Shown: positions 2,938-30,087 of the stretch, one piece after another
How positions within the stretch are numbered: position 1 is the first letter of the stretch
Layout of the letters: each line of letters opens with the position of its first letter
IMG/VR virus record: IMGVR_UViG_3300020477_000090
Coordinates: 1 to 30,087 of that record
DNA length: 30,087 nucleotides
Source: a virus
Reading direction: 5' to 3' (one strand)
Translations under genes and position numbers: made by a program
The notes under the pieces: generated by a model
The model's input: the letters and a program-made list of their open reading frames with translations, nothing else
The model's database searches: none
Told to the model about the DNA's origin: nothing

Positions 2938-4461
2938 CTAAGCTATGTATGCAATAACAACAGCGTCGCCTGCCGTAAGGCCAGCGCCCATTGTGATGCG
3001 AGCATTGCCGCCGCCGCCGCCAGTCAATGACACAGTGTACTCGTCATTGTCCGTTGCCGATCCACCCAATGCAGTCTCATTGCGAAGTTGCAAACCATTC
3101 TTGAAAACCTGAACGTACTTGTCCCAGTTTGCCGAAAGGGGGCGAGCCAAGTCAATGGTTGTCTGATTGGATGATGCGCTGATGGCTTCCTGATAAGGTT
3201 GGAAAGCAAGCTTGGCCAATCCTGTACCATTGTTCTTCAGCCTCAAAGCGTCTGATGCAATCTCAATGCTGGCGTTGTCAACAGCAACATCAAGAGAAAC
3301 GGTGCCACCAAGCGTAACAGCGCCGCCGCCTGTCAAGGCATTGCCCGCAGTAACGGTCATGTTCTGAGCGCTGACGGTTCCAGAAGACACAGAAAAATGC
3401 GAGGCGCTGAACTGAGCAACACCTTTAGCTGACGTAGATGCATTTGCACCAGCAATAGTGACTGTTCCGCCAGACTGCGTAACGGTCATGCCTGAACCAG
3501 AACTGAATGTCAGCGTCTGTCCCAAGTCAACGGCCTGAGCAGTCGAGCCATCTGTAACGGTGATGCCTCTGTTAGCAAGCTTTGAATTGGCAATAGAACC
3601 TTGAAGCATGGCATTGGTTACGCCGTTTGAGTTGATGGTCAGCCCGGAACTGTTCACAAGAGGACCGCCAGACTTCAGCTCAACAGCAGACCCGGCAACC
3701 TTGGCAGCCGTTGTGATCTGAAGAAGCTTGCTGTCTGCAATAGAGCCAGCCAAGTCAGCGTTGGTAATGGATGCACCCAAGCTTAGCTTTGAGTAGGCTA
3801 TGGCTGCACTGTTGGAAACCTGCAGGTTTGTGATTTGTCCATCAGCAACCTTGAGGCCAGAAGCAGAGACAGCAAGCGTAGCGCCATCAACAACTGCACT
3901 GAGGGTGTTGCCGCTTTTCGCCAAACCATTGCCAGCAATGATCTGAGCAGCGCCGGTGAACTGAGTGAAGTTAACAGCCGTCGACCCAAGGGTTACAGCA
4001 TCATTGGTGCAAACCCAGCCGGTATCTGCATAAGAGCTTCCTTCTCGAACAAAGCATGCTGCGCCTGGAAACTCAGACCCGGCATCCATGTCGGTGGAAC
4101 GTGTCATTGCAGAGCCGGAACCAGCCCATACGTAGATCCCGTTCTCGCTTCCGGTAGACTGGGCAGCCACCAATATCCTGTCGCCATTTGAAAGCGTGAC
4201 GCCATCTATTGCGGCAACCCCAGGATTGCTTAATGTCATGTTGGCAGTAGAGCGCACTCGCACACTGTCCTTCCAGTGGAGACCTGCGCTTATGCCATCG
4301 ACATAAGTCTTGTTAACAATGTCATTGCCTGCGCTTGGCGTACCAGCCCATTGCAATGATTGGTTGGAACCAAAATGCCATTGTGACGAATCGGTAAAGT
4401 TTACGTTAGAAGCAGCGAGCGTTGCAGGTTTTACCTGCGCCCCAGAAATTTGAACAGCCAT
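2938..4461 (-). CDS. Tail fibre protein
   Basis: This 507-aa protein is rich in Ala, Gly, Ser and Thr with no Lys/Glu-rich helices, typical of trimeric fibres. Residues 49-70 (VNKTYVDGISAGLHWKDSV) and 86-112 (DGVTLSNGDRILVAAQ, then ENGIYVW) match a module widespread in phage tail fibres. Repeated fibre motifs follow: AIAYSKLSL, DLAGSIADSKL and MLQGSIANSKL (about 225-300), then GGTVTIAG and TLGGTVSLDV beta repeats. The C-terminal 60 residues (YVQVFKNGLQLRNE ... DEYTVSLTG ... GDAVVIAYIA) form a separate beta module also seen in the 86-aa upstream protein. GGAG six bases before the ATG supports the start. Expected role: host receptor binding. Confidence 0.85.
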   Translation of the reverse strand: MAVQISGAQVKPATLAASNVNFTDSSQWHFGSNQSLQWAGTPSAGNDIVNKTYVDGISAGLHWKDSVRVRSTANMTLSNPGVAAIDGVTLSNGDRILVAAQSTGSENGIYVWAGSGSAMTRSTDMDAGSEFPGAACFVREGSSYADTGWVCTNDAVTLGSTAVNFTQFTGAAQIIAGNGLAKSGNTLSAVVDGATLAVSASGLKVADGQITNLQVSNSAAIAYSKLSLGASITNADLAGSIADSKLLQITTAAKVAGSAVELKSGGPLVNSSGLTINSNGVTNAMLQGSIANSKLANRGITVTDGSTAQAVDLGQTLTFSSGSGMTVTQSGGTVTIAGANASTSAKGVAQFSASHFSVSSGTVSAQNMTVTAGNALTGGGAVTLGGTVSLDVAVDNASIEIASDALRLKNNGTGLAKLAFQPYQEAISASSNQTTIDLARPLSANWDKYVQVFKNGLQLRNETALGGSATDNDEYTVSLTGGGGGNARITMGAGLTAGDAVVIAYIA

Positions 4462-5143: not shown

Positions 5144-8100
5144 TTACTCCTTGTAACTTTCTGCTTCTTTTTCCAGTTCTTTTATCAAAAGGTCTAATTT
5201 TCTACTATCACGTCTTGCTTTTCTTCGTATTACTTTTGGCGTCTCAACAGCACTTAGGTACCCAAGCCAAGTTGGAATGCTTCTATACCCAAAATATCTG
5301 CCTGGAGTCAACTGAGGAGCGCCTTCTCCTGGACCAGGCATCAAGGGAAGCTTTTCCTTTTCTGCTGCCATGGCTGCTTTTGCTATATCATCAAGACCTC
5401 TTTTCTGTCCTGCCATTAATACCAACAAAGCCCATCGACTGAACTTTAGCTCATCTGCCTTGGTGTTAAATCGATACTGCACTGCATAAGGGGCTGTTCC
5501 TTTTTTTTGAACATATCCAGGCTCAGCATACGTTGGACCTTCAAGCCTTCTGTATTCAAACTTAGACGGAACAATATTAAAGTGAAACATCCTGTCTGCA
5601 ATGCCTTCCTTTTTCACCTTTGGATCTCTAAAGAAATCAAAGGTATCTGTTCCACGCATCCACCATATAATCTCATCTGGAACCTTGCCGCCTATATCGT
5701 TGGGGTCAACCGAATCAAACTCTTTGATTACATGGTCTATTGCGGGGCGCCACTGCCCTTCTTTTGCAAGCTTAACGGCCTGGTTTGTGGCTTTTCCCAA
5801 ATCCAGTCCATTTGCAAATTGATCTAAAGCAAAGTCTGATAAATTGACGTAAGCCTCAAATGCTTCTGCTGCAGGTATCATTGGCCCCATTGACAAGACT
5901 CTTTCGTCTGCAACCAACTCATCCCTGAAGCCAGTAAACCACCGCTTCTTTGTGTCGTCATCACCATACAACCACGCATCTGCATCCTTTTGCATTTCAG
6001 CATTAAACTTTATTGCATTGTAAAGCAGTCCTGGGTTTGTATCTTTCTTGGCTGTTCTAAAAATCCAATTTGCTGTTTCGGCCATGTTCATCATTTTGAA
6101 AGACACGAACATCAAGTAGCGCTGCAAAGCTTTACGTTGGTTTTTATCTACCTGACCATAGTCCAAGATGCTTCTTCTGGCTATCTCTGCTGCAGCAGCA
6201 TGATCGTGACCCTCTTTAAGGGCCTGCCAAAACACACCCTTCCTCACCCAGTTGTCAGCGCCCATGGCAAATTGGGAAAACAAGTTCTTATTTCTGGGAT
6301 CAACATACTTAGACGCAAGCCTTGTCACTTTGCTTTTAGGCTGGCCTGTTATATACATTCCCAACTCATTCATCATTTCATCTGCTTTCTTTGAGTAGTA
6401 AACAACATCCTGCTTGCTCATGCCAGTATGATATTTTGAATACAAATACCTCAAGTCACCTGCAGTATAGGCTCTGCCAAGCTTGTCAGTAAACATGACC
6501 TTATCTGGAGGAGCGCCGGTTATCTTGTTTACAGTATTCATCCATGATCTATTCATTCCACCTTTCAAAACGCCCTTTATGCCAAGGGTTCCTGTTGTGG
6601 ATGCAGCAATGAAAGGCCATGTCAAAATATTTATTGCATTGTATCTGAACCCTGGAATCGGCCATGAACCAGCCAGCATTCCTGTGGCTGTCGTTGTTCT
6701 CGTGCTGTCTATTATTGAATCAAGAACCGAGAGAGCCGCCCGCCCTTCTTGCCTTGCCATGAGCTTATCTGTAAAGGCTTTTAAGTTCTCGCCCGTAATC
6801 ATCTCTTTGAATTTTTTTATCGTGTCTGCATGATCCTTTCCAAACATCATCACTCGTGGGTCATCTGATTTCAGGGTCAGTATGTTTGGCTTGTTTTCAA
6901 CAATGGATCTAAATATATCGTCATTTATCGTTGCCCCTGACGCCTGCCAGAACTGCCTGTATTGATTGAGTAAAGAGCCATAGGCAGTATCAAGCATGCT
7001 GCCATCTTCTTTACCAACACCCAAAAAGGCATCGCTGATCTCTCTTTTTTGTTTTTCTCTAAACTTTTTGGTCAGCTCCTTTCGCCCAAGTCTTTTTGCT
7101 TCTGATGCCCATTTGTCATACTCTCTTCCCAACACTCCCAATGCCTCAGAAGACACAGCATTGATCTCATTTTTGATAGACCTCATGTTAGGACGCAAGG
7201 TACCTTTGCGATCTGTAACGCCTGTTATCCATTGAATTACTTTTCTTTTGTTTGCAGGCGAGATACGATTAAGGCTTTCATAATGGGCCTTAGCCATAGC
7301 TTCGCCAAAGCCTTTGATGAATTCATCTCCAGCCTTTTGCGTTAATCTGCCAGATAGGTATCTGCCTTTTTTGGTTTTATGCATTCCTGTTGGAACTTCT
7401 TCAAGCATTTGTGCAGCAATACCTTCATACTTTTGAATCAACGAAGGAATATCAAGTATCATTCCGCCAGATGCAAGCGGGTCATGAGTCATGTCCATTG
7501 CATATTGAGGGTTCTGATCTAAGAACTGCCGCATTTGCTTTTCAAACACACCTGATGTTCGTGATCGCATCGCCCAAGGGAACAGCGCTCCTGCAGCCGC
7601 CTTTGATCCCCTCATCGTTTGCATGCCCATCCCCTTCAATTCGTCTGGCCTGCGCTTTCCAAGATTTTCAGTAATGAAGTTTAGGTTGGTTAGGTTGATG
7701 TCCATGATATTGCTGGCTTTTGGCGTAAAGACTTTTATCTCTTCTGGAAAAACCATTGCCCCTGGAACAGATCCTTTTTTAGTTACATCATGAAGAAGCC
7801 TATCCTCTTCTAATATTTTTGTAGCAACAGAAGAGTTCCCATAAAAGCTTTGTAGAATTTGTTTCCAAGCATCCAATTTTTCCATATACAACTCAGCATC
7901 AAGAACCAAATCTCTGTACACTGAGTCTGGAACATCGCCTTTCATTTTTGCTATTACAGATGTAATCCTGTTGTAAAGCCTTTCATTGCGTGCTTTCTTT
8001 TCTGGATCAGAACCTCGAAACTTTAATATTTCCAAATAATCTTTGTATGATCCGTTCACATATCGATCAACATAGTCGTCTTTGTTGCTCTTAAACGCCG

Positions 8101-24426: not shown

Positions 24427-26111
24427 TGCGGCAAGAACTGGGCTATGTCTTCAGGAGACGGGTTTTGTCCTGGCGCGAGGCCACCGCTTGACTGCATGCC
24501 AGCCTCTGCAGCGGTTGTCGCGGGAGGTTGCGGAGACATTGGCGCAGACTCCAGATGTTCAAGGAAGGAGTGCGGAAGGTCAAGAAACCGGACTATCTCT
24601 TCGAGAATCTTGTCGGGCGGAACGCCCATCGAGACGAGAGTTGGCAACGCGGCCATGAATTCCTGCTTCTTGATTGCTTCCGATACTGGAGTCGCGCCAG
24701 AATCTTGTGCATAGTAGGTGAAATCGCCTGTCAGATCGTCAGCATTAACGATTGTAGCCTCTCCGGAGAGAACCATAACATCACCTTCATCAGCTAAATA
24801 CAGCTTCATCATTGCAATGTAAATAGACGCTATCCCTTCTATAGTCGAGTCTCTTTCTCTGGCGAGCCTGCCGACCTCAGAAGACGAGTAAGCAGCGAGC
24901 GCTGTTATCTCTGTCGCTGTAGCCCTGGTCGACTCTCCCCTTGTAAATGGAGCCAGAATGGAGCCTCTTTCGAAATCGTTCTGTACTTCAAGCGCATATT
25001 GCTGCAGCTCGTGTGGGACAGGCGTATGTGGAACAGCCATAATGGAGCCAGCAAGTTGTTGTCCAGGCGACAACTCCACTTCTATGAACTCTCCATCGAC
25101 GCCTTGAGTAAGCTTTGCCATGGCTTCCGAGTCAAACACACCTGACTCTACAACCCATTGACGAGCAGCTTTCCGCACCATGGACGCCTGATAAGACCGA
25201 ATAATGTTGTGTTCTTGAACCTGATCGTAGACTCTTCTCAGCGAGGAGTATCCTCTGAGGGGGATATCAGGCTGCCGAGAGTAATACAGAGGCACGATAG
25301 GAGCAATAGGGTGGTTAGCGCTATCCTTAAACGGAATGGCGTTGTACCTCTTTTCCTTGATCTCTCCTTCCGCGCCTTCCGGCATGACAATCCCATCATA
25401 AACAAACTTGTCTCCATTCTTGTAGTCCGGACTCCAGATGACAAGGCGATCATCAGCCAAGTCATAGAACTCAACTATCTCTACGTACTGAAAGTGCGGA
25501 TCTTCGCTTGCTTTATCTTCTCCGCCGTACCCCTTGTCTCTGGCTTCGGACACCATATCCAGGAACCGTATCAAGGGATGAGGAGCAAACTTTTTGTTGC
25601 CATACTTCTTCTTTGCTTCATTCAAAGTAACATAGTAACGGTGGGCCACGAACTTCTGTGCGCCCCAAGAGTGTGCATCAGTATCCACCAAAACATCCCA
25701 AGGAGCAACCGCAGCAATAGAGACGCGCCGAAATGGGTCTGGATGATCATTGGGCACCAACTTCAAAAATGAACAAGGGTAAATAAGCCCGAGTCTTGTG
25801 CTGTCTTCCAGTTGATTTCGGACGCCGCTCAGATAATTGTTGACCAGGGCCTGCACCTTGGCCGCATCCCCTTTTCCCCTCAAGTCTCCTTTAACAACAA
25901 CTGCAGGAGAGCGAGCAAACAGCGAAGCAACATAGCCTTCAATAAACTCATAAGCCCTTGAGGTTTCAATCAGTATCTGATCTGGCGTATGCGCCTTATC
26001 CCAATACCTGCACATGTACGCAGCTCGAAGCTTCCTCAATTCAGGACGCTTTTCATCCCAGTACTTCTTATGAGCAGCGTAATGTTCCTGAACAATCTTT
26101 GGACTGATCAT
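24423..26111 (-). CDS. Portal protein
   Basis: This is a 562-aa protein. It follows TerL with an ATGA overlap and precedes the head-assembly genes, the standard portal position. The sequence fits: N-terminal helix with RPELRKLRAAYMCRYWDK, then SRAYEFIEGYVASLFARSPA, a wing region with AAVAPWDVLVDTDAHSWGAQ, a YVEIVEFYDLADDRLVIW strand pair, a stem/clip region (DIPLRGYSSLRRVYDQVQEH, then NIIRSYQASMVRKAARQWVV), and a C-terminal crown with TRATATEITALAAYSSSEVG. The last 30 residues are Pro/Gln-rich. Expected: a dodecameric ring at one capsid vertex that binds terminase, adaptor and, probably, the ejection core. Confidence 0.8.
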   Translation of the reverse strand: MISPKIVQEHYAAHKKYWDEKRPELRKLRAAYMCRYWDKAHTPDQILIETSRAYEFIEGYVASLFARSPAVVVKGDLRGKGDAAKVQALVNNYLSGVRNQLEDSTRLGLIYPCSFLKLVPNDHPDPFRRVSIAAVAPWDVLVDTDAHSWGAQKFVAHRYYVTLNEAKKKYGNKKFAPHPLIRFLDMVSEARDKGYGGEDKASEDPHFQYVEIVEFYDLADDRLVIWSPDYKNGDKFVYDGIVMPEGAEGEIKEKRYNAIPFKDSANHPIAPIVPLYYSRQPDIPLRGYSSLRRVYDQVQEHNIIRSYQASMVRKAARQWVVESGVFDSEAMAKLTQGVDGEFIEVELSPGQQLAGSIMAVPHTPVPHELQQYALEVQNDFERGSILAPFTRGESTRATATEITALAAYSSSEVGRLARERDSTIEGIASIYIAMMKLYLADEGDVMVLSGEATIVNADDLTGDFTYYAQDSGATPVSEAIKKQEFMAALPTLVSMGVPPDKILEEIVRFLDLPHSFLEHLESAPMSPQPPATTAAEAGMQSSGGLAPGQNPSPEDIAQFLPQ

Positions 26112-27637
26112 GTATTCACCTTCCAGGGAAGTTGCGTCTCCTTCATTTTCGACGCCCTTGTTTTTGAGATTAGCATGTCCATGTGTTTTCGTCTCGCATT
26201 CGTCAATACTCTTCTCGGAATATCACGCATGCATCGATACGCCAAAGCCATTGACATAGCCATGTCATCATGCATCCCCTTCGGCGCTTCTGGCGTAACA
26301 CGCATTACAACCAAAGACCGCAACTCTGCAAGCACCTGCATGTCCAGCGCCGTTATCATCCCGGCCCCCACATACTCTCTCAGCGTCTCATACGCATCCA
26401 GCTTGCTCTTCACCGAAGTAACCCAATCCATTCCCTTATAAGACAACCACAGGTTCTTGTACCCCATGTGGCGCATCCGATAAAGAACAAGATGACCATG
26501 GTTATTGCTCTCACACAAGACCTTCGCATTGTGATACTTCTGTGCCATCTTCACAACCACATCAGCAAAGTCAGTCGGACTGATCTTGTTGTTCCGATAA
26601 TGATACACCGGCTGATGCGTCGATAGACTGACAATCGTAATGGCCGAGTAGTCAGACCCAACCCCTGCAGCAACATCAACACCCATCGCATAACAATCAG
26701 ACTCTATCGGCTCTTCGTATACCCGGTCACGATCCGTAAACGGCAAAGCCTCAATAGCCAGCAAATCATCTGCATCAAAGTAAGTCGAACTCGCAAAGAA
26801 GAAAGCATCGTCCATGCATGCCGGATACTCCCTTCGAAACTTCTCTTTCCCCAACGTCGCTATCTGCTGCCTTCGCCAGTACAACTGCTCATCATCCAAA
26901 CCATAACGGTTCCCCAAAGCCTCTTCTTCATCAGTCCTTTTAAACCTGCGCGGAGCAGGCATCCGGTAACGCTCATGTTCCCACCACCAGAACGTCACCA
27001 GATGCCAGCCATTCTCAGGACAACCCTGCACCAAACGATGAAAGGCATCCCCGCTCATGTTGGCCGTACTCTCAATAATGATCTGCCCTTCTCCAACTGT
27101 GGCCGTCACCTGAGCCAACAACTCACCAGGATCATCATAAAAAGCAAACTCCGACAAATGAGCAGCAGTCAACGTAAAGCTTCGCGTCCCTCCCTTCGAT
27201 CCAGCAGTATACGAACAAAGCGTAGCTTCCGTATCTGCAAACTCCAACGTCGTAGAATTATCAACCCGCAACTCTCGATGCAACAACTTCGGAAGACTCT
27301 GAAGCAACGTATTGTCCATCTTCCGCAAATGCTTCGCTGACCTGTCATGAAAGCTTATCACCCCAAACTTGACAGGGTCGTCAGTTTTATAAACCTGCCA
27401 CAAAGCATAAGCCCGTAACAAAGTACTCACACCAATCTGACGAGGCTTCAAAACAATCACTCGCTTCCGGTTCTGAACTTCCTCCAACAACCGCATCTGC
27501 TCAAGATTAGGCTCGAAACGAACACGCTTGGAACTCGCCTTGTCCGGTATCCACAACATCCGTATGAACCGCTCCGGATCACCAAAGATAACTCCCATCT
27601 GCTTCCGTAAGTCATCAGGCAAATCAGCTACTCTCAC
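26108..27637 (-). CDS. terL: Terminase large subunit
   Basis: This is a 509-aa protein. The ATPase has Walker A KPRQIGVST (64-72), the Walker B strand FTLTAAHLSEFAF with catalytic Glu163, and coupling motif IIESTAN (187-193). The nuclease domain has D321 in MGVDVAAGVGSDYSAI, E376 in VLCESNNHG and the D457/D458 pair in MHDDMAMSMALAY. The GTG at 27637 is the likely start, since GGGAGG lies five bases upstream; an earlier GTG at 27664 has no SD and would read through it. It is the first gene of the late operon. Role: ATP-driven DNA packaging and cutting of concatemers. No small terminase gene lies next to it. Confidence 0.9.
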   Translation of the reverse strand: MRVADLPDDLRKQMGVIFGDPERFIRMLWIPDKASSKRVRFEPNLEQMRLLEEVQNRKRVIVLKPRQIGVSTLLRAYALWQVYKTDDPVKFGVISFHDRSAKHLRKMDNTLLQSLPKLLHRELRVDNSTTLEFADTEATLCSYTAGSKGGTRSFTLTAAHLSEFAFYDDPGELLAQVTATVGEGQIIIESTANMSGDAFHRLVQGCPENGWHLVTFWWWEHERYRMPAPRRFKRTDEEEALGNRYGLDDEQLYWRRQQIATLGKEKFRREYPACMDDAFFFASSTYFDADDLLAIEALPFTDRDRVYEEPIESDCYAMGVDVAAGVGSDYSAITIVSLSTHQPVYHYRNNKISPTDFADVVVKMAQKYHNAKVLCESNNHGHLVLYRMRHMGYKNLWLSYKGMDWVTSVKSKLDAYETLREYVGAGMITALDMQVLAELRSLVVMRVTPEAPKGMHDDMAMSMALAYRCMRDIPRRVLTNARRKHMDMLISKTRASKMKETQLPWKVNT

Positions 27638-27700
27638 ATAAGCCTCCCAAAGGCAGCATAGCACGTTGTGAGGGGTAATAAAAATTTGCCCGAATTTAGA

Positions 27701-27799: not shown

Positions 27800-27838
27800 A
27801 AAAGGGCCTTCCCTTCATCCCTGGGATACAACCTTCTG

Positions 27839-27879
27839 TCTCTCCCTCCTTCCTCTTTTTCCAGAGGACGAGGGAGAGA
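27839..27879. repeat. Compound hairpin
   Basis: TCTCTCCCTC (27839-27848) pairs perfectly with GAGGGAGAGA (27870-27879). Inside it CCTCT (27852-27856) pairs with AGAGG (27863-27867) around a 6-base loop. There is no T-run on either side, so it is more likely an RNA-processing or protein-binding structure, or a host-type intergenic palindrome, than a terminator. Confidence 0.5.
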
Positions 27880-27905
27880 GACCCTACCCCATCCCTCCAC
27901 CTTCA

Positions 27906-27994: not shown

Positions 27995-28070
27995 GTATCT
28001 TCTCCGCACAAGGCTTCATATTATTTTCACAGCCTTGCTCTTCAATCTGAATTATTTTGCTCCGCCTCTG

Positions 28071-28104
28071 TTGACAATGACAATGCTCTGATGTACCTTA
28101 GAAT
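28071..28104 (+). promoter_or_regulatory. Possible early (rightward) promoter
   Basis: TTGACA at 28071-28076 is a perfect -35. At 17-base spacing the -10 is only TACCTT (28094-28099). A better hexamer, TAGAAT (28099-28104), is at 22 bases, too far for sigma70 alone. It lies 40-70 bases before the first early gene, so an early promoter here is plausible but may need an activator. Confidence 0.4.
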
Positions 28105-28115
28105 ATGCATTGCTT

Positions 28116-28127
28116 TTGATGCATCAA
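28116..28127. promoter_or_regulatory. 12-bp perfect palindrome before the first early gene
   Basis: TTGATGCATCAA is a perfect palindrome with no spacer, placed between the putative -10 and the RBS of the 67-aa gene. It fits an operator for a dimeric repressor. It ends two bases before AAGGGACA, an arrangement repeated with other hairpins at two later early genes. Confidence 0.45.
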
Positions 28128-28141
28128 CCAAGGGACACCAA

Positions 28142-28345
28142 ATGACTGAAGCCGAATTAAAAAAGCGAATTGAAGAGCTGCATCGTGTATGCTCCACCAT
28201 TTATGAGGAGATACTGGAAGAGTCTGGCAGAGGTTGGAAAACAGATCGCGCCTATGTTGGCATTCTCCAACACAGGCTAAACATAATGGAAGGCATACTT
28301 GAGGGATATGAAGAACAACTTGCAGCGAAAGAGGCGACCAAATGA
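28142..28345 (+). CDS. Small early coiled-coil protein
   Basis: This is a 67-aa protein, first of the rightward early block. The ATG at 28142 follows AAGGGACA with a 5-base spacer; the open frame runs further upstream but through the control region without an RBS. It is nearly all helix: MTEAELKKRIEELHRVCSTI, then YEEILEESGRGWKTDRAYVG and a third helix NIMEGILEGYEEQLAAKEAT. This is likely a small helical bundle or dimer. No family is recognised. It overlaps the next gene as ATGA. Confidence 0.6.
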   Translation: MTEAELKKRIEELHRVCSTIYEEILEESGRGWKTDRAYVGILQHRLNIMEGILEGYEEQLAAKEATK

Positions 28346-28596
28346 GCATTGATTTTCCACATTGGATTCAAGTCAACGAATCGCTGATAACTTTCAAATC
28401 AAGCGGAACTCTACCCGATGGCGTCGGATACATCACAATCGACATTTCACAGGCAGAATACGCTCACATTGCATACCTGCAATCTCCTATGGCCCTCGTC
28501 TACAATGGCGTCGTCTATGGACGTTCATCGTACAACTCTGACAAAATGGAGGTAGTGTACCGCACCGACAAACCAACAGCGACAGCCATTCGTTGA
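28342..28596 (+). CDS. Small early protein, unknown
   Basis: This is an 84-aa protein starting inside the ATGA overlap, with GAGG seven bases upstream. It is predicted to be mainly beta: SLITFKSSGTLPDGVGYITI, then AYLQSPMALVYNGVVYGRSS and KMEVVYRTDKPTATA. It is likely a small single-domain cytoplasmic protein. No known motif is seen. Its stop codon lies at the base of a nested RNA hairpin that precedes the next gene. Confidence 0.6.
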   Translation: MSIDFPHWIQVNESLITFKSSGTLPDGVGYITIDISQAEYAHIAYLQSPMALVYNGVVYGRSSYNSDKMEVVYRTDKPTATAIR

Positions 28597-28644
28597 TTGG
28601 CTGATATCGCCTTGGCTACGGTCAAGGCCATGTCACCCAATCAA
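28593..28644 (+). ncRNA. Nested RNA hairpin at an early gene junction
   Basis: TTGATTGG (28593-28600) pairs with CCAATCAA (28637-28644), and inside it GCCTTG (28609-28614) pairs with CAAGGC (28623-28628). The outer stem includes the stop codon of the upstream gene and ends directly at GGGACA. It may control mRNA processing or translation; it could also be a structured element of unknown kind. Confidence 0.45.
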
Positions 28645-28668
28645 GGGACACAAACCAAGGAACAACCA

Positions 28669-28752
28669 ATGCTATTCTGGATAGCCCTATCACTTATCAT
28701 TCTAACAGCCATCATCGTCAGCCATGGCGACATCTGGAGACCAGCACAATGA
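28669..28752 (+). CDS. 27-aa single-span membrane miniprotein
   Basis: The ATG at 28669 has AAGGAACA five bases upstream, and the stop overlaps the next start as ATGA, so it is in the operon's usual packing. Residues 2-18 (LFWIALSLIILTAIIVS) are a single hydrophobic helix, with a short polar tail HGDIWRPAQ. Such tiny membrane peptides in early phage blocks can act on host membranes or block other phages, but nothing here fixes the role. The good RBS and overlap support a real gene despite its length. Confidence 0.55.
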   Translation: MLFWIALSLIILTAIIVSHGDIWRPAQ

Positions 28753-29153
28753 AACATGAAACCAAAGAACAAACCATCAAAAGGGAAGCGGATAAATTGC
28801 GTCAACGCATGGCCCCATACCAAGACGTCGAAGCGCTATGGGACTCAATTGAACAATGGCTAACGCTCGCCTATGGTGCCGAGATTGCAGCATCAATCGT
28901 CTACCTTGCAAAGCTTGAAAAAACAATGCTTGGTGCAAGGTTTGATTCAAATGGCTACGTTTTCACAGTGAACCATGACCCATACATGGAGGGAAAACGG
29001 GTCGTCTATCGGCGAAGCGCACAGTTTCAAGACTGGGTTTATGGCGAAGACAGGGCAGAGCGCATCGCCAAAGAACTTCAAGACAAATTATGTGAGTCTC
29101 GACTCACTCCCATGACATGGGCCGAAGCAATCAAAGAGACACCAGCAAGCTAA
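28749..29153 (+). CDS. Early protein, unknown
   Basis: This is a 134-aa protein starting in the ATGA overlap, with GGAGA nine bases upstream. It has an N-terminal charged helix (TKEQTIKREADKLRQRMAPY), a central helix (LWDSIEQWLTLAYGAEIAAS), then strands (RFDSNGYVFTVNHDPYMEGK, RVVYRRSAQFQDWVYGEDRA), and a closing helix. It is soluble, with no recognised family or catalytic motif. It is probably one of the small host-takeover proteins typical of such blocks, from position only. Confidence 0.6.
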   Translation: MKHETKEQTIKREADKLRQRMAPYQDVEALWDSIEQWLTLAYGAEIAASIVYLAKLEKTMLGARFDSNGYVFTVNHDPYMEGKRVVYRRSAQFQDWVYGEDRAERIAKELQDKLCESRLTPMTWAEAIKETPAS

Positions 29154-29180
29154 CCAACACACCACACCACACCACAACAA

Positions 29181-29198
29181 GACCGGGCTCGCCTGGTC
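29181..29198 (+). repeat. Small hairpin before an early gene RBS
   Basis: GACC-G-GGC-TC-GCC-T-GGTC folds into a 7-bp stem with one internal mismatch. It ends directly at AAGGGACA, three bases before the ATG of the 130-aa gene. This repeats the hairpin-plus-AAGGGACA layout seen at 28116-28141 and 28593-28650. Confidence 0.4.
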
Positions 29199-29209
29199 AA
29201 GGGACAACC

Positions 29210-29602
29210 ATGAAAAAAGCAACATTCGAATACACAACAATCTCAAATGCAATCAACATGTCTCGAGACAAAGAGACGGTGAGAGAACTTAACGTATGCG
29301 TGATTAGCAAGGGACGCATCATAAACCCCATCACGGCCAGATGGTACATGGGCCGAAGCAAGTCGGCATCGGTAGTCTATTGCTCGCTCTGGATTAGCGG
29401 CTCATCTATCTACCTCGGTGGTCATGGAAAGGCCGGGGGCTATGGATGCTGCAAGTTCAGTGCGGCATTCGCCGAGGCATTGAGAAGCGCAGGTGTCAAC
29501 ACCATAGAATGTTCAGGCCGAGGTATGTCCACCGTCAGAGAAGCCATGATATCCATCTGCAAAGGCCTTGGGTTCAACGGAAAAGTCACCATCATAAGCT
29601 AA
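29210..29602 (+). CDS. Early protein, unknown
   Basis: This is a 130-aa protein. The ATG at 29210 follows AAGGGACA by three bases; the longer reading would overlap the previous gene. Strand-helix pattern: ELNVCVISKGRIINPITARW, then SASVVYCSLWISGSSIYLGG, a Gly-rich turn HGKAGGYGCCKFSAAFAEAL (helix), AGVNTIECSGRG, and a last helix-strand ending GKVTIIS. It is probably a compact alpha/beta domain. The GYGCCKFSAAF segment looks conserved in style, but no family is certain. It has five cysteines without a metal-site spacing. Confidence 0.6.
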   Translation: MKKATFEYTTISNAINMSRDKETVRELNVCVISKGRIINPITARWYMGRSKSASVVYCSLWISGSSIYLGGHGKAGGYGCCKFSAAFAEALRSAGVNTIECSGRGMSTVREAMISICKGLGFNGKVTIIS

Positions 29603-29640
29603 CCATCATCACACACAACACAACAAATAGGAACACCATC

Positions 29641-29973
29641 ATGACAATCCACAAAGAAACACTGACGAAAAGCATATCAATAGGTAACAATCTCACTCTT
29701 CAGGCTTGGGTTCTGCATTATCCCGGCCACCCACATAGGACATGGACTGAATACCGAATCACCAGCGAACATGATCTGCTTCACACCTCAAAGAATATTT
29801 TTGAGTCGCTCGAATACATAGGCGCAAAGGTCGATGGTCTTGAATGGCATGTGGGAGAACTGACCAGACAAAGAAACGAATACATTAAAAAATCGGTGCA
29901 CTACTTCTCTGCTATCCAGAAATACAGCATGCTATTAGACGGCTACATCATCAACACAGAGGCAACAAAATGA
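29641..29973 (+). CDS. Early protein, unknown
   Basis: This is a 110-aa protein. The ATG at 29641 has TAGGA nine bases upstream. The first half is beta-rich (SISIGNNLTLQAWVLHYPGH, then PHRTWTEYRITSEHD). The second half is helical (NIFESLEYIGAKVDGLEWHV, then TRQRNEYIKKSVHYFSAI). It ends ...EATK and overlaps the next start as ATGA. The same EATK ending closes the 67-aa early protein, but this is too short to mean homology. No function is proposed. Confidence 0.6.
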   Translation: MTIHKETLTKSISIGNNLTLQAWVLHYPGHPHRTWTEYRITSEHDLLHTSKNIFESLEYIGAKVDGLEWHVGELTRQRNEYIKKSVHYFSAIQKYSMLLDGYIINTEATK

Positions 29974-30087
29974 AATTGGAAACATACCTCGGAGATTTTT
30001 CCCAACTAATCATGGACATTGAAAACGAAATCGTCAAGCCATGTGAAGACATGTCATGCGATGGGGATTGCAAGGGAGGTATTCACT
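29970..30087 (+). CDS. Early protein, unknown (3' partial)
   Basis: The gene begins at the ATGA overlap, with AGAGG seven bases upstream, and runs off the window after about 39 residues. The visible part is a helix (MKLETYLGDFSQLIMDIENE) followed by a Cys-rich stretch with cysteines at about 27, 32 and 36 (KPCEDMSCDGDCKGG), which could be part of a metal site. The rest is outside the window. Confidence 0.5.
   Translation, partial: MKLETYLGDFSQLIMDIENEIVKPCEDMSCDGDCKGGIH

Follow-up and report, generated by a model that had tools for sequence, protein, structure and literature searches.

A repeated, probable start motif and a stable predicted hairpin among the early genes of an uncultured tailed phage

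We describe two elements from the early region of an uncultured tailed phage. One is an AAGGRACA motif, which we read as a lineage-typical Shine-Dalgarno or start-associated motif that may double as a recombination joint. The other, here called hairpin 2, is, as far as its predicted fold and comparison with relatives go, a genuine structure that lies between the second early gene's stop codon and the next leader.

Gene order and promoter region

The window, i.e., the whole stretch of DNA that was analysed, is a linear IMG/VR record of 30,087 bases. Its minus strand carries the structural genes, with portal and terminase at 26108-27664, and small genes are found on the plus strand from 28142 on; we use the term early for the latter on the basis of gene position and orientation only. 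Terminase relatives among viral contigs are a sister phage, L002 (16 kb), then L003 (91%) and L004-L012 (near 80%), and a terminase search in genomes found no host. The proteins of the early genes at 28342 and 28749 matched the sister contig only in our searches. The features are as follows:

28071..28104, plus strand: likely early promoter (TTGACA 28071-28076, spacer 17, TACCTT 28094-28099)
28077 and 28099-28104: alternative promoter boxes (ATGACA at 28077, spacer 16, TAGAAT 28099-28104), a 10/12 match, in number not above shuffles
28116..28127, no strand assigned: palindrome 1, TTGATGCATCAA (RNA form also ATGCAttgcttttgaTGCAT), weak
28130..28137, plus strand: AAGGGACA, putative Shine-Dalgarno/start motif of the gene at 28142
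28142..28345, plus strand: first early gene, 67 aa, without family match
28342..28596, plus strand: second early gene, 84 aa, its stop codon (28594-28596) inside the left arm of hairpin 2
28589..28648, plus strand: hairpin 2, predicted stem of 3+8+6+8 pairs with single mismatches G.G, C.C and C.C and a 4-nt loop
28654..28660, plus strand: ACCAAGG joint, breakpoint of the 230-bp one-gene difference to L002
28657..28664, plus strand: AAGGAACA, putative Shine-Dalgarno/start motif of the gene at 28669
28669..28752, plus strand: 27-aa gene, without family match
29181..29198, plus strand: hairpin 3, GACCGGG-CTCG-CCTGGTC, modest
29199..29206, plus strand: AAGGGACA, putative Shine-Dalgarno/start motif of the gene at 29210
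29210..29602, plus strand: 130-aa early gene, phrog_7028, unknown function

The promoter stretch overlaps a recurrent motif, TGTTGACAATGA (28069-28080), and TGT[AT]GACAATGA also precedes the first early genes in L005, L007 and L008. In these three phages it often occurs twice before early genes, with the copies ~30-45 bases apart, and in L005 and L007 one copy lies within a hairpin loop. Possible roles are those of an operator or an extended -35 element. The product of the 27-aa gene, judged from its hydrophobic sequence, is probably a membrane peptide.

A probable start motif before early genes

The window contains three copies of AAGGGACA and no more, all of them on the plus strand (28130-28137, 28643-28650 and 29199-29206), versus 0.99 copies expected, and at least three copies are reached in 5 of 100 shuffles. 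These are the places already named in an earlier note on this DNA, and the wider search that it proposed added none within the window. The copies at 28130 and 29199 each have an ATG at Shine-Dalgarno distance, and the copy at 28643 has none: it begins 26 nt 5' of the ATG at 28669 and belongs to the right base of hairpin 2. Since AAGGAACA at 28657 fills the Shine-Dalgarno place here, the 28643 copy is not the ribosome-binding copy of its gene. When all likely gene starts are read, the sequences before the early starts are AAGGGACAccaaATG (28142), AAGGAACAaccaATG (28669) and AAGGGACAaccATG (29210), while late genes instead start behind GGAG/AGGAG-type motifs.

In each of the three leaders, 3-4 nt separate the end of the motif from the ATG, which places a purine core, AAGGA or AAGGG, at Shine-Dalgarno spacing (usually about 5-10 nt from the start codon). 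The universal anti-Shine-Dalgarno sequence, from which we infer the pairing, pairs with AAGGA, and with AAGGG by using one G-U pair; AAGGAACA has five Watson-Crick pairs to it. The earlier note had doubted that AAGGGACA is a Shine-Dalgarno sequence, a doubt that gives way before the right distance, the alternation with AAGGAACA and the AAGGA-type motifs in relatives' leaders. The most likely role of AAGGGACA is that of an ordinary motif for ribosome binding at early genes, and the Shine-Dalgarno reading, taken alone, is in our judgment highly probable; as a translation signal alone, the motif is ordinary. A start site for a phage polymerase at GGGACA, also raised in the note, is unlikely because the regions upstream of the three sites have only CAA in common. 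The RNA polymerase family PF00940 (RNA_pol) matched none of 12 records, all of which are fragments in which a control search was likewise unmatched.

At the same place, relatives have AAGGAACA, AAGGACAA, AAGGAAAA or AAGGAGCA, in A/C-rich leaders with AAGGA-type motifs. The pattern AAGGRACA..ATG gives 12 matches in 14 records (versus 2 for the reversed control), where the sister phage and near-identical pairs are counted among the records and three of the matches fall in the unrelated-looking L034/L035 or within a gene of L007. The phage L036 repeats AAAGAAAGGTCACTGTC-ATG 5' of its own genes. Comparison of the leaders of the window phage, its relatives and L036 thus suggests that each phage repeats one favoured leader. 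In L036 (5809-7436), which to go by the contig name is from the same sample, the phage's own start leader GAAAGGTCACTGTC-ATG is repeated at several genes.

Of the layouts described so far, the closest is that of cluster K mycobacteriophages, which have start-associated sequences (SAS) with a 13-bp consensus, GGGATAGGAGCCC, and extended SAS with 17-bp inverted repeats whose consensus is common to the sites of a genome (PMC3203893). As in these phages, the window has a Shine-Dalgarno motif that is repeated in one orientation just 5' of non-structural gene starts, with an inverted repeat directly upstream at some sites; the Shine-Dalgarno core of SAS lies 3-7 nt before start codons, and the motif of three early genes in the window agrees with this placing. 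In contrast to the cluster K consensus, the window motif is AAGGRACA and has few copies, and its stems 1-3, unlike the extended SAS, are unrelated in sequence, with only one of the three significant. Because neither the consensus nor the common inverted repeats match, the window motif is not a member of the SAS.

A one-gene difference that ends in the motif

The window and its sister L002 are 99.89% identical across 12.5 kb, and L002 has an extra 230 bases that amount to one small gene (MRQGIYVSAND...). Identity reaches 28660 when followed from the left and 28654 when followed from the right; the overlap, the ACCAAGG that belongs to the start motif, is the joint. One phage has gained a gene or the other has lost one, most simply through recombination of two copies of the leader. 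In mosaic phage genomes, boundary sequences are short common sequences at gene borders where content changes. The ACCAAGG joint likewise is a short common sequence at a changing gene border, but differs in that it is the start motif itself, found in a 99.9%-identical pair. We propose that AAGGRACA and its short A/C-rich spacer form a Shine-Dalgarno-type start motif repeated before the lineage's early genes. Such short and similar copies could recombine with one another, which would add or remove single genes while leaving translation of the next gene unharmed.

Fold and relatives of hairpin 2

Hairpin 2, with 25 pairs and three 1x1 mismatches, lies between early genes in a stretch that is presumably transcribed early, and its right base contains part of the AAGGGACA copy at 28643-28650. 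Its predicted fold has -28.4 kcal/mol, versus -13.5 (sd 2.6) in shuffles, of which 0 of 200 are as good; the z value is -5.8 on 61 nt and about -5.5 to -8 overall, and the hairpin is the best-folding 70-nt stretch of the 30 kb window (rank 1 of 2,502). Owing to G-U pairs, it is more stable on the transcribed strand than on the other, both in the window (-33.3 vs -27.4) and in L006 (-28.8 vs -25.1). In both phages it starts on the upstream gene's stop codon (...AIR-stop in the window, ...SIR-stop in L006), and the leader 3' of it is unstructured. Rfam 15 has zero matches in 28000-30087, even at E <= 5.

A pattern search for hairpin 2 found L002, L005 and L006 only, plus one chance-like match; by our own estimate, about one chance match is expected. 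The homologue in L005 and L006 is 76-77% identical over 66 nt, and scores 84-87 bits in a hairpin 2 model that was built from these same sequences. Searched with this model, 31 loci and 16 records yielded no other convincing copy, and hairpin 2 is absent from L007, L008 and L040. L011, with 14 bits, was unconvincing and is not counted. The chance-like pattern match in L034 reads FLDWV..RPCHP in one frame, and the corresponding window frame has no start codon, so we rejected a coding remnant.

Between the window and L006, 19 pairs are invariant, two are compensated on both sides and three are lost, with two loop-proximal pairs not comparable; in addition, one position that is C.C in the window is a gained G-C pair in L006 and L005. 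L005 and L006 differ from each other at two positions, both in the loop. This level of covariation is reached by 53 of 500 shuffles, the data holding only two independent versions of the hairpin. The proteins encoded upstream of hairpin 2 show no similarity between the window and L006, and the gene 3' of it differs among the window, L002 and L006, which indicates that hairpin 2 marks a border of changing gene content.

Hairpins 1 and 3

Hairpins 1 and 3 are close to chance and are not seen in relatives. The fold of leader 1 is equalled or beaten by 28% of shuffles, and palindrome 1 is identical in the sister L002 only; it is possibly a DNA operator directly downstream of the promoter. The fold of leader 3 is matched by 2-5% of shuffles, or 16-25% with longer flank, and the L036 orthologue (60% identical) of the gene behind hairpin 3 has no hairpin upstream. 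An adjoining stem as good as that of leader 1 is found at 25-35% of early-region positions, and comparable values are 6.7% for the outer stem of leader 2 alone and 0.6% for leader 3. No hairpin of this kind precedes the early genes at 28342, 28749 and 29641. Among 42 early leaders of seven phage records, four are beyond z -4 (the window's 28669, its sister copy, and 4361 and 6734 of L007), and hairpins are therefore not a general part of these leaders; the L006 homologue of hairpin 2 has z -3.4 when cut to 75 nt.

The earlier note had described the three leaders as one layout of hairpin plus AAGGGACA, with structure being selected. The motif copies and stems are where it placed them, but they do not form a single unit, given that the Shine-Dalgarno distance is kept in leaders 1 and 3 only and that fold strength varies widely. 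Selection for structure is plausible for hairpin 2, in view of its z value, the L005/L006 homologue, the two compensated pairs and the loop-only differences between L005 and L006, and is not borne out for the other two hairpins. The layout is absent from other early genes, yet one stem carries compensated changes; the two observations that were jointly to speak against the proposal thus point in opposite directions.

Interpretation of hairpin 2

Early genes of T7-like phages are transcribed as a polycistronic message with RNase III processing stems between them. Hairpin 2 is likewise a long imperfect stem between early genes, followed by the next leader, and agrees on sequence grounds with the form of such sites (an imperfect intergenic stem of ~20 bp or more). 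The explanation that we tentatively favour joins the Shine-Dalgarno reading of the motif with a role of hairpin 2 as a processing or end-protecting stem within a polycistronic early message. Its duplex is long, has few mismatches and resembles the RNase III sites of T7; it might accordingly be cut by host RNase III, and would separate the fate of the upstream message from that of exchangeable downstream genes. It is possible, if rather unlikely, that hairpin 2 acts instead as a DNA element (a small mobile inverted repeat, an operator, or a site of replication or recombination). A DNA-level role is conceivable because the inverted repeat is nearly perfect, with the other strand also scoring 37-44 bits in the model, and the flanking genes differ in the window, L002 and L006 as at an exchange point. 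However, the stem is stabler on the transcribed strand through its G-U pairs, the cassette breakpoint lies outside it in the start motif, and it has a single copy per phage, with none in the other phages or plasmids searched; the single pattern matches seen in genomes and in further viral contigs resemble chance matches. We rejected a mobile repeat, with zero copies in the phages, plasmids or genomes searched.

A transcription terminator or attenuator behind the second early gene would suit a very stable hairpin directly after a stop codon, but is improbable, as no T-run follows (CAAGGGACACAAACC, with CAAGGGACAC next), the terminator scan does not list hairpin 2, and the downstream gene has no evident promoter of its own. 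That hairpin and AAGGGACA were selected as one cassette, e.g., as the target of a translation regulator that binds a start-associated sequence and its extended inverted repeats, is suggested by the distance of 0-2 nt between AAGGGACA and the end of a stem at each of the three sites and by such pairs in cluster K mycobacteriophages (PMC3203893); we consider it very unlikely, with stems 1 and 3 near chance and no common sequence among the stems, three other early genes without stems, relatives without stems 1 and 3, and the site 2 motif away from the ribosome-binding place. Least probable of all is that everything is chance plus a common Shine-Dalgarno variant. The motif is short and stems 1 and 3 are weak, but for hairpin 2 chance is largely refuted, since it is far beyond shuffles and common to a relative with different flanking genes. 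A further reading, which we consider rather improbable, sees in hairpin 2 a structured RNA new to science and belonging to an uncultured phage group; it would shield the first early genes from a slot whose gene can be exchanged, with the adjoining motif as the joint for single-gene cassettes. If the explanation that we favour is right, it would be a clean natural example of small early genes being swapped between phages, in which 99.9% identical genomes are one gene apart and the difference ends in a ribosome-binding motif beside a conserved structured spacer. It would also account for the common leaders among one phage's early genes, and offers a testable processing stem.

Other stems

A strong inverted repeat (z -5.2) lies at 27829-27898, where the terminase gene is separated from the early genes. 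L007 has a different, very strong intergenic stem, AAAGGGTAGGACAT...ATGTCCTACCCTTT (5615-5765, minus strand), which precedes the gene that starts at 4361 of the early strand. It follows a stop codon and is itself followed by an A/C-rich AAGGAAC leader (ACACACACAACAAAGGAACG), is unrelated to hairpin 2, and is fully unchanged between L007 and L042 (10680-10832). We count its position, which is comparable to that of hairpin 2, in favour of our preferred explanation. At early-strand positions 6661-6734 of L007, a stem CCTTATTGTGTTGTGG...CCACAACACAATAGGGG with TGTAGACAATGACA in its loop is followed by TTTTTT directly 5' of the ATG, and looks like an attenuator.
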